Assembly: GCA_020741375.1 (NCBI GenBank) | Contig: DYZF01000072.1 | Coordinates: 1-13,325 of the forward strand | From: Tessaracoccus flavescens | Lineage (GTDB): Bacteria > Actinomycetota > Actinomycetes > Propionibacteriales > Propionibacteriaceae | Direction of reading: 5' to 3' | Length of the DNA stretch: 13,325 bases | Shown here: positions 6,856 to 13,325 of the stretch, one piece after another | Layout: each line of letters begins with the position of its first letter | Numbering within the stretch: position 1 is the first letter of the stretch | Translations under genes and position numbers: made by a program | Notes under the pieces: model-generated | Told to the model about the DNA's origin: nothing | What the model saw: only the letters and a program-made list of their open reading frames with translations | Database searches by the model: none

Positions 6856-8556
<1,701 letters not shown>

Positions 8557-8628: not shown

Positions 8629-9324
8629 TCACTCAGCAGGTTGATCACAGGTGCGGTCGAAGCGAGCGGCCACCGCAGCGATATCCGCATCTGTCGCGCC
8701 CTGTCGACGCAGGAACTCGACCGCATTCGTCTCGTCCAAGAAAGATCGCAGTGCCGAGACCCGCTCTCCTAGCCACGCTTCCCACTCTTCCCCAACTTTG
8801 TGGGTCTCCTTGGGGTGTGGATTGTGCGCTTGGAAGGCATTGATCCCCTCAGCGGCCGCGACGTACCCATCGACGATATCGTCGTGGCTCCAGCCGGCAA
8901 CGAGTTGGCCGAGCGACAGCACTAGGCCGGTACGGTCGCGACCGGCGGAGCAGTGCACGATCACGGGACCGTCAGCATGGCCGACCGCTAGGAGTGCCCG
9001 AGCCACCCGGTCACCGAACATCTCAAGATATCCGGCGTAGTCAGCTGGGTGATCGAGGTAGCCCATCGGGTAGTCGAAGCCCGGGTGGTCAGGATCCTCG
9101 GTCGGGCGATGCAGGACTGTTAGGCCGTCAAGAGCAGCGGCCGACACGTTTGCGTCGCCTTTGCGGCGGACAGCGAACTCAATCTCGGACCTTAGATCGA
9201 CCACCGTGCGGTAGCCCTCTCCGAGGGCTTGGCTCCAGCCTTGCTCTGTGACCCATTCCCGTCGCCCCATACGCACCACACCGGGTGCTACCTGATGCGC
9301 GTTGACCGCTCCGTCCCAACCCAT
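8629..9324 (-). CDS. Tyrosine-protein phosphatase family protein
   Basis: A 231-aa protein with the Cys-based phosphatase loop HCSAGRDRTG. Cys125 is the nucleophile and Arg131 the phosphate-binding arginine (C-x5-R). VVDLRSEIEF (41-50) is the typical upstream strand of the Y_phosphatase3 group, which includes mycobacterial PtpB-like enzymes with protein or lipid phosphatase activity. A helical C-terminal part (DATDADIAAVAARF-like ending) resembles the UIM-like tail of that group. There is no signal peptide; secretion is not indicated. The ATG at 9324 is preceded by TAGGTT with 6-nt spacing and no usable SD, so a leaderless start is likely. G+C is visibly lower than in the fumarase. No cognate tyrosine kinase is nearby. 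Confidence 0.85.
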   Translation of the reverse strand: MGWDGAVNAHQVAPGVVRMGRREWVTEQGWSQALGEGYRTVVDLRSEIEFAVRRKGDANVSAAALDGLTVLHRPTEDPDHPGFDYPMGYLDHPADYAGYLEMFGDRVARALLAVGHADGPVIVHCSAGRDRTGLVLSLGQLVAGWSHDDIVDGYVAAAEGINAFQAHNPHPKETHKVGEEWEAWLGERVSALRSFLDETNAVEFLRRQGATDADIAAVAARFDRTCDQPAE

Positions 9325-9901: not shown

Positions 9902-9941
9902 GATGAGAGATTTCTCATCAACTCCTGAGCGTCTCCTCATC
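9902..9941 (+). promoter_or_regulatory. Tandem operator pair upstream of the 144-aa acidic protein
   Basis: Site A1 is GATGAGA-GATT-TCTCATC (9902-9919), a perfect 7-bp inverted repeat. Site A2 is TGAGC-GTCT-CCTCA (9926-9939), the same layout with two substitutions. Centres are 22 bp apart, about two helical turns. A1 matches a site upstream of the second acidic-protein gene (12701-12715) at 14 of 15 positions. A2 lies where the -35 region would be if TTCAAT (9951-9956) is the -10, as expected for an activator. The most likely ligand is the response regulator encoded next door (inference). Confidence 0.72.
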
Positions 9942-9976
9942 GAAGAGGAGTTCAATTGCCGCTGGAGGTGAAGACA

Positions 9977-10411
9977 ATGAGCAACGCGCTGCGCACCACT
10001 GCGCTCGTCGTGGTTGCCGTCGTGCTCGGGCTGGTCCTGGGCTACACGGTCACCCAAGCGTTCTCCCGGACGGCGGAGCCGGCGGAGGATCCTGCCATCA
10101 TTGTCACCGCCGTCCCGGCCGCACCGACGCCGTCGGCCACGCCCAGCGCGTCGCCGATCGCGACGATCAGCCCCACCCCGCTGCCCACGGAAATCTCGAA
10201 GCCTCCAGCCGAGACCAACCCGCCTGCGCCCAAGCCCGCGACCACGGCACCCAAGACGGTCGCCGCCCCGAAGCCGAAGCCTGCCGCGGCCAAGAAGACC
10301 GTCTCGGCGCCGAAGCCCCAGCCCGTCTACGACGACGATGACGACGAATGGGACGACGACGATGAGTGGGACGAGCCCGACGACGACGATGAGGTCGACG
10401 ACGACGACTAG
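9977..10411 (+). CDS. Membrane-anchored protein with Asp/Trp-rich tail, 144 aa
   Basis: I do not recognise a named family. A short N terminus (MSNALR) precedes one hydrophobic helix (about 7-29), giving an N-in, C-out anchor. Residues 30-118 form an extended Pro/Ala/Thr/Ser then Pro/Lys/Ala linker suited to crossing the cell wall (APTPSATPSASP, AAPKPKPAAAKK). The tail 119-144 has 22 acidic residues of 26, with two Trp (DDDDDEWDDDDEWDE). ATG 9977 is chosen for GGAGG 8 nt upstream; an in-frame TTG at 9956 has none. It shares layout and upstream sites with the gene at 12804 on the other side of the two-component genes. Its TAG stop overlaps the regulator's stop in a shared CTAG. Likely role: a surface polyanion that binds cations or cationic molecules (inference). 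Confidence 0.85.
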   Translation: MSNALRTTALVVVAVVLGLVLGYTVTQAFSRTAEPAEDPAIIVTAVPAAPTPSATPSASPIATISPTPLPTEISKPPAETNPPAPKPATTAPKTVAAPKPKPAAAKKTVSAPKPQPVYDDDDDEWDDDDEWDEPDDDDEVDDDD

Positions 10412-11088
10412 ACCAGCCGGTATCCCATGCCGCGCACGGTCTCGAACCGGTCCTTCCCCAGCTTCCCGCGCAGGTACCGCACGTACACGTCCACGACGTT
10501 GGAGGCCGGGTCGAAATCGAAGCCCCACACGTTGCTCAGCAGCTGCTCCCGGCTCAACACCTGACCGGGGTTGCGCAGGAAGGTCTCGGCGAGCGTGAAC
10601 TCTCTGGCCGACAGGTCGATCCACTTGCCATCGACCTGCGCCCGCCGCGTCAGGAAGTCCAGCGTCAAACCGTTGTGGGTGAGCTGCGTCGAGGTCGACC
10701 CGCCCTCTCCTCCGGAGGACGACGGCGAATCCGAGCGCAAGCGGAGGCGGATTCGCGCCAACAACTCCTCGAACGAGAAGGGCTTCGGCATGTAATCGTC
10801 GGCGCCACCCTCCAGGCCGGCAACCCGGTCAGCGACCGATGACCGCGCCGTCAGCATGATCACCGGCACCGCGACGCCTTGGCCGCGGATGCGTTCGAGC
10901 ACCTCGAAACCGTCGATATCTGGGAGGCCGACGTCGAGGATCACCAGATCGAAGTTGCCGTGGACCGCCAGCGACGCGCCCTCGGAACCCGAAGAGGTGG
11001 AGTGCGAGGTGTAGCCCGCCGCCTTCAGACCCTTGGCGATGAACGCCGCAATTCTGGCTTCGTCCTCGATGATCAGAATCGTGCTCAC
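10408..11088 (-). CDS. Response regulator, OmpR/PhoB family
   Basis: A 226-aa DNA-binding regulator. The receiver domain (1-118) has the acidic pair Glu8/Asp9, phospho-acceptor Asp52 in VILDVGLPDIDG, Thr80 in MLTARSS and Lys102 in MPKPFSFEELLARI; all key residues are present. A Ser/Gly linker (119-130) leads to a winged-helix domain with LSAREFTLAETFLRNPGQVLS, the recognition helix region ASNVVDVYVRYLRGKLG and the wing FETVRGMGYRLV. The GTG start overlaps the kinase stop by 4 bp (GTGA), so expression is coupled. Its probable targets are the TGAGN-N4-NCTCA site pairs before the two flanking acidic-protein genes. OmpR-type proteins usually bind direct repeats, so the inverted symmetry of these sites deserves attention. 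Confidence 0.96.
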   Translation of the reverse strand: MSTILIIEDEARIAAFIAKGLKAAGYTSHSTSSGSEGASLAVHGNFDLVILDVGLPDIDGFEVLERIRGQGVAVPVIMLTARSSVADRVAGLEGGADDYMPKPFSFEELLARIRLRLRSDSPSSSGGEGGSTSTQLTHNGLTLDFLTRRAQVDGKWIDLSAREFTLAETFLRNPGQVLSREQLLSNVWGFDFDPASNVVDVYVRYLRGKLGKDRFETVRGMGYRLV

Positions 11089-12581
11089 GGCGTCGTCCCC
11101 TCAACTTCTGCTACGTCCTCGTCGCCGTCCGCCCCGGGCTGCGACCCCGCCGGGCTGATGGGCAGCACGATGGTGAAGGTGGACCCCTCGCCATGGACGG
11201 AATCGATCTCGAGCCGGCCGTTGTGGGCGGCGACGATGGACTCGACAATACTCAGGCCAAGGCCAGCGCCCTGGGCGCGCGACGCGGCCTCGCGGGTGCG
11301 GCCGAAACGCTCGCGGACCGTCTGCAACTGATCGGGCGCGATACCAATTCCCTGATCACGGACGAAAAGCTCCACCTCGCCGCGGTTCAGCCGCGACCCC
11401 AGGGTGACCGGCGACCCGGCCTCCGAGTACTTCACCGCGTTGGCAGCCAACTGCAGCCACGCCTGGGTGACGCGGCCGGGATCGATGAACGCCTCCGCCG
11501 CCGCGACCCGCTCCAGGCGCCACGAGCGATCGCCCAGCGCACGGGCCTTCTCCAACACCTGGTCGGTGAGGGTGGTGAGGTCGAACCATTGAGGCTGCAC
11601 AAAGTCGGATTCGGTGGATTTGGCGAGCATCAGCAGATCGTTGACCAGGACGCTCATGCGGTCCATCTCGTCGATCGCCAGATCGCGCGTCTGCGCGACA
11701 TCCGCCGGGTCGTCGACGTCGATCAGCTCCATGTGACCGCGCACCACCGTGATGGGGGTACGCAGTTCGTGGCCGACGTCGTCGAGTAGTTGACGCTGGC
11801 CCTCGACGGAGCGCTGCACGCGGTCGAGCATGCGGTTGATGGTCGCCGACAGCGCCGTCAGGTCGTCCTTGCCACGGACAGGGACCCGGGTGGTCAGATC
11901 GCGTTCGTCGATGGATTCGGCGGCCTCACGTAGTTCCTCGATGGGGCGCAGCAGCCGGCCGACGGCGAGCCACGCGGCGAAGACCACCAGCGCCATGGTG
12001 CCCAGCGCAACCAGCGCATAGACCGTCATCGTGCGTCGCAGCTCTGCTTCGGCGACGTCGCGGTCGAAAACGTGCAACAGGGCGCCGGACGCGTTCGGGT
12101 AATGCACCGGGGCTACAAGAACGTGGTAGTTGCCGGTGGAGGTACGCACCGGCTCGATCCGCATCTGCGTGCCGGTGGCCCAGGGGCGTACGTGATCGAC
12201 AAGCTCCTGATCATCCTCGGGGCGGAAGGGCACGTCGTCCGAGGCAACGAGGGCGACGGCGCTGCCCCGGAACGCCAGTTCGCCTTCCCCCTCACCGATG
12301 ACAGTGCGCGCGAGGTAGGTCTCGAGCAGTTCGTTGGGACCGCTGAAGGGCTCGCCCGTGGTGGGGTCTACACCTTCGGCCGACAGCACGCGGAGCTCAT
12401 CGCGGGCGCGTTCGAGCTGCGTCACAAGGTTGTCGGAGATCGCGCGATCTTGCACGATGGCCACGATGGCGCCAGACGTGGCCAGCGAGAGAAGGGTGAG
12501 CAGCACCATCGCCCACATGATCCGGGCACGAATGGTCACCTTCGTGGTGATGTCCTGCCCCGGGGATCTCATGAGGTTCAT
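11085..12581 (-). CDS. Sensor histidine kinase, HisKA/HATPase type
   Basis: A 498-aa membrane kinase, cognate to the coupled regulator. TM1 is about 22-44, an extracytoplasmic sensor of about 140 residues follows (45-184), TM2 is about 185-208, and HAMP is about 209-260. The dimerisation domain carries His271 in DDVGHELRTPITVV. The ATPase domain shows the N box (WLQLAANAVKYSE), G1 (VRDQGIGIAPDQ), F-like (RERFGR) and G2 (GAGLGLSIVESI), so it should be active. The C terminus is an acidic disordered tail. ATG 12581 is chosen for GAAGG 7 nt upstream; in-frame ATG 12611 and a longer frame lack a good SD. The sensor is rich in acidic residues (EGEGELAF, DDVPFRPEDDQE), which could bind cations (inference). 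The kinase precedes the regulator, the reverse of the usual order. Confidence 0.94.
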   Translation of the reverse strand: MNLMRSPGQDITTKVTIRARIMWAMVLLTLLSLATSGAIVAIVQDRAISDNLVTQLERARDELRVLSAEGVDPTTGEPFSGPNELLETYLARTVIGEGEGELAFRGSAVALVASDDVPFRPEDDQELVDHVRPWATGTQMRIEPVRTSTGNYHVLVAPVHYPNASGALLHVFDRDVAEAELRRTMTVYALVALGTMALVVFAAWLAVGRLLRPIEELREAAESIDERDLTTRVPVRGKDDLTALSATINRMLDRVQRSVEGQRQLLDDVGHELRTPITVVRGHMELIDVDDPADVAQTRDLAIDEMDRMSVLVNDLLMLAKSTESDFVQPQWFDLTTLTDQVLEKARALGDRSWRLERVAAAEAFIDPGRVTQAWLQLAANAVKYSEAGSPVTLGSRLNRGEVELFVRDQGIGIAPDQLQTVRERFGRTREAASRAQGAGLGLSIVESIVAAHNGRLEIDSVHGEGSTFTIVLPISPAGSQPGADGDEDVAEVEGTTP

Positions 12582-12803
12582 TGTGCCGCCTTCAAGCCAT
12601 AACGCTGTCATTTGCTCATCGCGCGGCCGCTCAGAAGTGGGCGAGGCGCGTGATGAGCGCAACTTTGTCGCCGAAAACTAAGCGTCCGGTGAGCCCCATC
12701 TGAGAGCTTTCTCATGTGCGCGGATGAGAAACCTCTCACCAAAAGGCCGGGGTTGGCCTCATCTTGGCTGGGTTTGATGGTGTCAACAATCAAAGGAGTC
12801 CCC
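12582..12803. promoter_or_regulatory. Divergent intergenic region between kinase and second acidic protein
   Basis: These 222 bp must hold the promoters of the kinase-regulator operon (leftwards) and the acidic-protein gene (rightwards). For the rightward gene TTGGCC (12753-12758), 17 bp, GATGGT (12776-12781) is a weak candidate, with the operator pair upstream as for an activator. For the leftward operon, TAGTTT (minus strand, about 12674-12679) could be the -10, placing site B1 near its -35; that would allow autoregulation. TTTGAT / ATCAAA form a small inverted repeat just before the RBS. All promoter calls here are tentative. Confidence 0.4.
12700..12740 (+). promoter_or_regulatory. Tandem operator pair between kinase and second acidic protein
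   Basis: Site B1 is TGAGA-GCTT-TCTCA (12701-12714) and site B2 is TGAGA-AACC-TCTCA (12725-12738), extended to GATGAGA-AACC-TCTCACC. Both have perfect 5-bp arms and a 4-bp spacer; centres are 24 bp apart. They repeat the design of the pair at 9902-9941. Position between divergent genes means one occupied pair could act on both directions. Confidence 0.75.
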
Positions 12804-13325
12804 ATGGCACTGAAGAACGCAACCGCCTGGCTCGCAGCCGCCGCGTTCGGTGTTGCGGCGGTCGCAGGAGGCGTGTTGTCCTCCATCGCGTCGCCGGTCA
12901 CCGAACCGATGCCTGCGATCACCGCCACCGCCACCCCCACCGTCGATCCCGAGGCCGCGATTGTCGTCGAGCCGATGCCCTCGGAGTCGGTGACTCTGAC
13001 CGGCGAGGTGGACCAGTGTGACGATCTAAACGCCAACGGCACGTGCGACGATGAGGAGACCCCGGCCACGCCTACGCCGACGCCGTCGGCCACCCCGTCG
13101 CCGACCCCTACCGTCACGCAGGCTCCGGCCGTGGAGAAGGCCCCCGCACCGGCCCCGGCCACCACGCAGCAGGCCGTCGCGCCGAAGAAGGCCGCCCCGG
13201 CTCCCGCACCGGCGCCGACCAAGAAGGCCACCACCAGCACCGTCAAGAAGAAGACGTCCACTCCCGTGCGCTACAGCGACGACGATGACGATGATGACGA
13301 CGACTGGGACGACGACGATGATGAT
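12804..13325 (+). CDS. Exported/anchored protein with EF-hand-like loop and poly-Asp tail (cut by window edge)
   Basis: The first 174 codons of a gene running off the right edge. An Ala-rich hydrophobic helix (about 8-28) serves as anchor or signal peptide. Residues 72-85 read CDDLNANGTCDDEE. From Asp74 this is a 12-residue EF-hand-type loop (Asp1, Asn3, Asn5, Gly6, Asp9, Glu12) with Cys72 and Cys81 bracketing most of it. A long Pro/Ala/Thr/Lys linker follows (TPTPTPSATPSPTPT, KKAAPAPAPAPTKK). The tail from 159 is nine Asp, Trp, six Asp to the window end. ATG 12804 has AAAGGAG 5 nt upstream. Architecture, tail and operators match the 144-aa protein at 9977, so the two look like diverged paralogues. 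Function unknown; calcium or other cation binding is suggested by loop and tail. Confidence 0.85.
   Translation, partial: MALKNATAWLAAAAFGVAAVAGGVLSSIASPVTEPMPAITATATPTVDPEAAIVVEPMPSESVTLTGEVDQCDDLNANGTCDDEETPATPTPTPSATPSPTPTVTQAPAVEKAPAPAPATTQQAVAPKKAAPAPAPAPTKKATTSTVKKKTSTPVRYSDDDDDDDDDWDDDDDD

Follow-up and report, generated by a model that had tools for sequence, protein, structure and literature searches.

A conserved actinobacterial two-component system linked by a palindromic DNA site to genes for anchored proteins with low-complexity tails

One contig of Tessaracoccus flavescens carries a histidine kinase and response regulator between two genes whose products end in aspartate-rich tails, an arrangement that raises the question of whether the four genes act together and, if so, what they respond to. 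The DNA examined here (the window, 13,325 nucleotides) is an entire contig, G000:C72, of a 2.26-Mb genome that is held in 296 contigs and is estimated to be 85% complete. Throughout, family denotes Propionibacteriaceae, class denotes Actinomycetes and genus denotes Tessaracoccus. The first-pass annotation described a kinase-regulator pair between two plus-strand genes of one design, and reading frames together with Pfam matches confirm this layout:

9977..10411, plus strand: gene A, 144 amino acids, ATG start (reading frame; same-place relatives)
10408..11088, minus strand: response regulator RR, a receiver plus an OmpR-type DNA-binding domain (Pfam; recognition helix DVYVRYLR)
11085..12581, minus strand: sensor histidine kinase HK (Pfam; structure models; fold comparison)
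12804..13325, plus strand: gene B, cut at the contig end (reading frame; same-place relatives)

The HK and RR reading frames share a 4-base overlap. Gene A is convergent to RR, with overlapping stop codons. Gene B is divergent from HK and lacks its 3′ end, since window and contig stop together. RR matches Response_reg (3.6e-27) and Trans_reg_C (1.4e-24), and HK matches HisKA (2e-13), HAMP (2.4e-13) and HATPase_c (4.2e-21). With all of these domains above their cut-offs and both proteins encoded in one operon, the pair is a two-component system of the OmpR/PhoB type. Among the best 25 NCBIfam matches for each protein, none reached its cut-off; assignments of RR as a CztR/SilR/CopR heavy-metal regulator (TIGR01387, 204.4 bits versus a cut-off of 279.2) and of HK as a WalK kinase (NF033092, 165 bits versus 725) were rejected. 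Close relatives of HK occur in records named Tessaracoccus massiliensis and Tessaracoccus sp. MC1679, in Propionibacteriaceae and Propionibacterium MAGs, and in two Schaalia records and one Buchananella MAG.

On reading, proteins A and B show the same order of parts: a single N-terminal hydrophobic helix, a linker of Pro, Ala, Ser, Thr and Lys, and an Asp tail interrupted by Trp. Protein A carries the strand-like motif EDPAIIV between its membrane helix and a Pro/Thr/Lys linker, and protein B carries AAIVVEP ahead of a Pro/Ala linker. GAC and GAT codons are mixed (15 and 4 for Asp in gene A, 12 and 10 in gene B), and thus a pure repeat at the DNA level does not underlie the Asp tract. Protein A ends in DDDEVDDDD and, as read, is without an LPXTG-type anchor signal; the corresponding end of B is absent from the contig. 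No Pfam family, PepSY included, was found for either gene, and a protein search with gene A gave 3309 candidates with none at E 1e-3, as expected from its low complexity. A GltJ match of protein A (19 bits versus a cut-off of 450) was set aside as compositional. A and B are probably disordered polyanions, with a linker that we infer to span the cell wall.

The palindrome ATGAG-N6-CTCAT, with up to one mismatch, occurs four times in the window, compared with a mean of 0.19 and a maximum of 2 in 200 shuffles. Unusual site pairs had been reported upstream of both genes, and the palindromes bear this out:

9903..9918, no strand: operator palindrome 1 before gene A, ATGAGAGATTTCTCAT, exact ATGAG-N6-CTCAT
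9925..9940, no strand: operator palindrome 2 before gene A, CTGAGCGTCTCCTCAT, one mismatch, 22 bp after the first
12700..12715, no strand: operator palindrome 1 in the HK-B gap, CTGAGAGCTTTCTCAT, one mismatch
12724..12739, no strand: operator palindrome 2 in the HK-B gap, ATGAGAAACCTCTCAC, one mismatch

Across 48 aligned promoters, the palindrome comes with a weak −10-like box and with an additional CTCATC half-site at a spacing of 11 or 22 bp. Judged by analogy with PhoB-type promoters, this arrangement fits the geometry of an activator.

If the palindrome belongs to this system, it should accompany related regulators and tail genes elsewhere. A family search for the regulator matched 91 of 197 genomes at E 1e-60, and the family comparison used 60 regions around such matches plus the loci of close HK relatives; in the class, the regulator was found in 52 of 296 genomes at E 1e-78, and 19 regions were taken. 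These loci gave 71 candidate tail frames, of which 58 were counted and 13 dropped, mostly as antisense or compositional artefacts, although two of them, the second acidic frame of L057 and the masked X frame of L170, are possibly genuine. Some real genes, such as B of L057 and L060, are overlooked by the detector. In 46 of the 58 tail genes beside orthologous regulators, the 350 bp preceding the helix include a palindrome with at most one mismatch (29 exact). The corresponding figure for 350-bp windows drawn at random from these loci, some of which may themselves contain real sites, is 152 of 2900. When fixed criteria were applied to whole loci, an operator-preceded anchored tail gene was present at 55 of 83 regulator loci and absent from 28, and a few matches are of another kind, such as the Thr/Gly-rich or His/Gly-rich proteins of L097, L101, L102 and L107. 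The same criteria in a further test recovered such a gene at 17 of 20 regulator loci of the class versus 0 of 20 arbitrary regions of class genomes, with 25 exact palindromes versus none. Sites had already been partly seen in three of these genomes (G363, G397 and G399), and without them the count is 14 of 17 (p 1.1e-7, a value inflated by shared ancestry). Co-occurrence in relatives had been named in advance as the observation on which the idea of a self-contained module would stand or fall, and the idea survives on both sets of loci.

The association extends to whole genomes. Exact ATGAGANNNNTCTCAT is present in 50 of 91 family genomes with the regulator versus 15 of 106 without it (p 1.3e-9, likewise inflated by common descent), leaving 41 regulator-bearing genomes that lack an exact operator; a reversed control pattern matched three family genomes. 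Twenty genomes were selected because they have the regulator; in each, an operator lies within 6 kb of it, and 33 of their 62 ATGAGANNNNTCTCA places fall within that distance, with 17 of the 29 distant ones contributed by two large genomes. A relocated A gene of G189, on another contig (L229), retains an exact operator. Together, these comparisons of sequence establish an association of the predicted operator with both the regulator and the tail genes.

Which protein binds the palindrome is suggested by variation in RR itself. Of 103 loci, 82 have the recognition helix DVYV[RG]YLR, and the fetched stretch contains the canonical operator in 72 of them; loci with any other recognition helix have it in only 6 of 21 cases (p 2.2e-7, again inflated by shared ancestry). 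Small changes to the helix (VYIRYLR, VYVRYVR) leave the operator in place at four of four loci, and the remaining altered-helix loci have it in 2 of 17. Both regulators with a VRALR helix (L172 and L178) are accompanied by altered palindromes, ATGAAGAAATCCTCAT and ATGAAGAGTTCTTCAT. Because regulators with changed helices mostly occur without the canonical site, this pattern points to RR as the predicted binder.

Tail genes of family loci occupy two places, A (convergent to RR) and B (divergent from HK). Both are filled in, for example, L053, L055 (where A is cut at the contig end), L057, L059, L060 and L071, and in L052 gene A lies about 4 kb away and the B frame is broken between the helix and the Asp tail. 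In 15 of 19 class regions, a frame termed X lies directly upstream of the kinase, and in 13 it is Asp-tailed; its product runs from one helix through a motif (DFGEPVEV or PDLGGPILL, for instance) and a linker of Pro, Ser and Thr to the tail. At several class loci a convergent gene is also present, whose product has a helix of another kind and a tail of Ser, Pro and Ala. By eye, A of the window resembles X, and B resembles this convergent type. Lipobox-like cysteines after the helix are visible by eye in L081-L083. NCBIfam searches at E 0.01 gave nothing for three X genes or for one Ser/Pro-tailed A gene.

The expectation that Asp tails define the system does not hold, for genes at the same places can bear Asp, Ser/Pro/Ala or other tails. 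Although B of L058 and B of L077 end in Ser/Pro/Ala tails, their N termini agree at 15-19 of 28-30 residues with those of the Asp-tailed B proteins encoded in the window, in L053 and in L055, and this shared N terminus makes it likely that tails have been exchanged on the same gene B. The B genes of L059 and L071 agree less well with other B genes. A strand-like motif, defined as [PG]-x?-[IVL]-x-[VLI] no more than 35 residues after the helix in a pattern written after the sequences had been read, occurs in 38 of 58 tail genes, compared with a mean of 13.5 and a maximum of 24 over 500 shuffles; by group, the Asp-tailed A/X genes have it in 29 of 36 cases, the B genes in 3 of 9 and the others in 6 of 13. 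We consider the module, its predicted operator and its partner family to be well supported. That the partners form a class-wide family of proteins acting with the kinase, each combining a membrane anchor and a short juxtamembrane strand-like motif with an exchangeable disordered tail, which would serve as a swappable antenna setting the input of a constant core, is a more speculative reading to which we give rather less than even odds.

A DNA pattern for DDDWDDD had 12 matches in 6 of 39 genus genomes, 10 of them within module regions. Among the matches, one on G000:C155 proved to be an unrelated frame ending GGDDDWDDD, and another lies on G180:C1.

The sensor stretch of HK contains 25 acidic and 13 basic residues (net −12), and net charge is negative in all 36 aligned sensors, from −1 to −23, in agreement with the acidic sensor domain that had been described. 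The sensor was modelled alone because comparison of the whole kinase was swamped by kinase cores, and fold comparison of the predicted structure indicates a PDC/Cache-like domain (models with pLDDT 87 and 93). Its sequence profile found nothing better than E 2.3 among PDB sequences. The extracellular sensor domain of WalK/YycG is among the best-matching folds, and sensors of many different ligands share this fold.

Other genes that carry the site offer a hint about the signal. In G180, exact sites precede both a secreted RTX calcium-binding protein (PF00353, E 2.2e-51) and a PepSY lipoprotein (PF03413, E 1.7e-17), and in G018 an RTX gene (E 6.2e-38) diverges from the kinase with a palindrome that is one mismatch off. 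At E 1e-15, 29 of the 197 family genomes contain RTX relatives. Among 27 upstream regions examined, 13 contain the palindrome in a relaxed form (up to one mismatch) that was chosen after a first look at the sites, and 11 of these are exact, whereas 300 shuffles average 0.16 with a maximum of 2. The cationic signal proposed in the first-pass annotation thus gains from the RTX genes and from one PepSY lipoprotein within the family, but outside the family the RTX link all but disappears, with the palindrome at 1 of 29 loci. The stretches fetched around a sister system beside RTX genes (G059, G088, G120 and G148) are free of the palindrome; the partner protein of this system matched PepSY in one of three tested cases (E 0.004, below cut-off), and one partner gave nothing against NCBIfam at E 0.01. 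Sites also stand upstream of genes for APH-family kinases (L168, L219) and for secreted proteins that match Pfam only weakly (L218, L221, L225). Poly-acidic stretches have a general affinity for divalent ions, and this property combined with the RTX result makes a divalent cation, calcium in particular, a plausible signal as far as gene content can indicate.

We propose, with a probability of roughly 0.45, that the locus is an autoregulated envelope module for divalent cations in which A and B are anchored polyanions that perhaps feed back on the kinase. HK would sense an extracytoplasmic condition through its PDC/Cache-like domain, and phosphorylated RR would bind ATGAG-N6-CTCAT upstream of A, of B and, in the shared HK-B gap, of its own operon. 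Binding would most likely activate A and B, in keeping with the promoter geometry. The polyanions would extend into the wall and bind divalent cations near the membrane, most likely calcium. They might also contact HK, by way of the membrane helix or of the short strand-like motif, and so act in feedback or as its co-sensors. Activation as opposed to repression, the calcium signal and the contact with the kinase are what we infer from these observations, and the feedback is a guess from anatomy.

A and B might instead exert feedback on the kinase as MgrB does on PhoQ, with the membrane helix and the juxtamembrane segment acting, the tail serving as a spacer or wall anchor of largely indifferent composition and no cation being involved. 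This alternative, which we regard as possible though doubtful, would explain why anchor and operator stay constant while tail composition changes, as in B of L058 and L077; it also suits the presence of A/B-type genes in the predicted regulon of RR and the appearance of WalK, which has known membrane partners, among the best-matching sensor folds. Against it, acidity is often retained, as in the Asp-tailed gene directly upstream of the kinase at 13 of 19 class loci, and family RTX calcium-binding genes bear the site.

A cell-wall stress module seems to us unlikely; in it, HK would report damage to wall or membrane, the anchored disordered tails would probe or cushion the wall, and the apparent cation link would arise because acidic secreted proteins are common. 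No cell-wall enzyme is prominent among the predicted targets that were read. Furthermore, we take SCO2142/SCO2143 of Streptomyces coelicolor to be a probable ortholog of the HK-RR system; the gene order of L178 (G254), where an Asp-tailed X gene lies upstream of the kinase and regulator, is what suggests this relationship. The available part of one study counts the pair among CssSR homologs and reports its expression to be unaltered under secretion stress (PMC3498368), which argues against wall stress to the extent that the presumed orthology holds. In the consulted portion of a table of S. coelicolor systems, the pair appears without a name (PMC9739842). Finally, the notion that low-complexity tail genes are simply common and that the palindrome is owned by an unrelated regulator is very improbable, for although some tail-like reading frame occurs in 10 of the 20 arbitrary regions, the operator occurs in none of them, and the palindrome varies with the recognition helix of RR.

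The arrangement and its matching DNA site recur widely in actinobacteria, and for this reason the module looks like an undescribed signalling system of broad recurrence in that group. A search of open-licence papers did not find a description of it, and the accessible portions of reports on CrsRK of Actinosynnema (PMC12623338) and on SCO5282/5283 (PMC6629963) revealed no link to the module. An apparently uncharacterised, conserved actinobacterial two-component system can now be connected to a DNA site, to likely targets and to a testable class of signal. The core regulon is small in most genomes examined, and therefore discovery of the signal should be practical. If tails do swap on a constant core, a low-complexity region would be changing the job of a signalling system; under the antenna reading, its input would change through exchange of the tail and not of the sensor domain.

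Two further known systems invite comparison. The BqsSR/CarSR system of Pseudomonas is tied to divalent cations in the excerpts consulted, and it is likened to the window system by description and not by sequence, the cation theme here being a conjecture; we know of no anchored acidic tail partners for it. In enterobacteria, according to the part of the source available, PhoPQ is linked to cations and its regulon includes the small single-helix protein MgrB, which acts on the kinase (PMC8404706). Unlike MgrB, which has 47 amino acids and is without an acidic tail, A and B carry long low-complexity tails; their anatomy and operator would suit single-helix membrane proteins within the predicted regulon of their own two-component system.

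Two genes lie near the kinase-regulator module in the window:

6856-8553, class I fumarase gene (PF05681, PF05683)
8629-9324, tyrosine-phosphatase-family gene (PF13350)

A class I fumarase gene is likewise found by reading in the module neighbourhood at locus L012 and at the distant locus L171. In Tessaracoccus massiliensis (L052), the operator at the relocated gene A, a copy of the predicted regulator site, is positioned ∼25 bp from the start of a protein similar to the tyrosine-phosphatase-family product of the window, and gene B carries a frame break that separates the membrane helix from the Asp tail (∼1900-2400, regulator-forward orientation). Directly after gene A, a multi-spanning transporter-like frame is present at L057, L077 and L080.

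Phosphotransferase-like proteins of ∼400 amino acids are encoded at seven loci (L162, L167, L168, L177, L217, L219 and L220), with a Pfam APH match confirmed only for L168 and L219. Their starts lie ∼50-65 bp from an operator at every locus except L177, for which no such site-to-start distance is listed.

At one of these loci, L217, a further regulator-like gene, the second in its genome, has several operators nearby, together with an Asp-tailed gene resembling X (the tail gene just upstream of the kinase). The large genome concerned, G331, may therefore carry two modules.

The palindrome ATGAG-N6-CTCAT was not found, within the stretches retrieved, with a sister system at L261, L262, L263 and L264, loci of four genomes in which the gene order is RTX (calcium-binding secreted protein), anchored protein, regulator and kinase.
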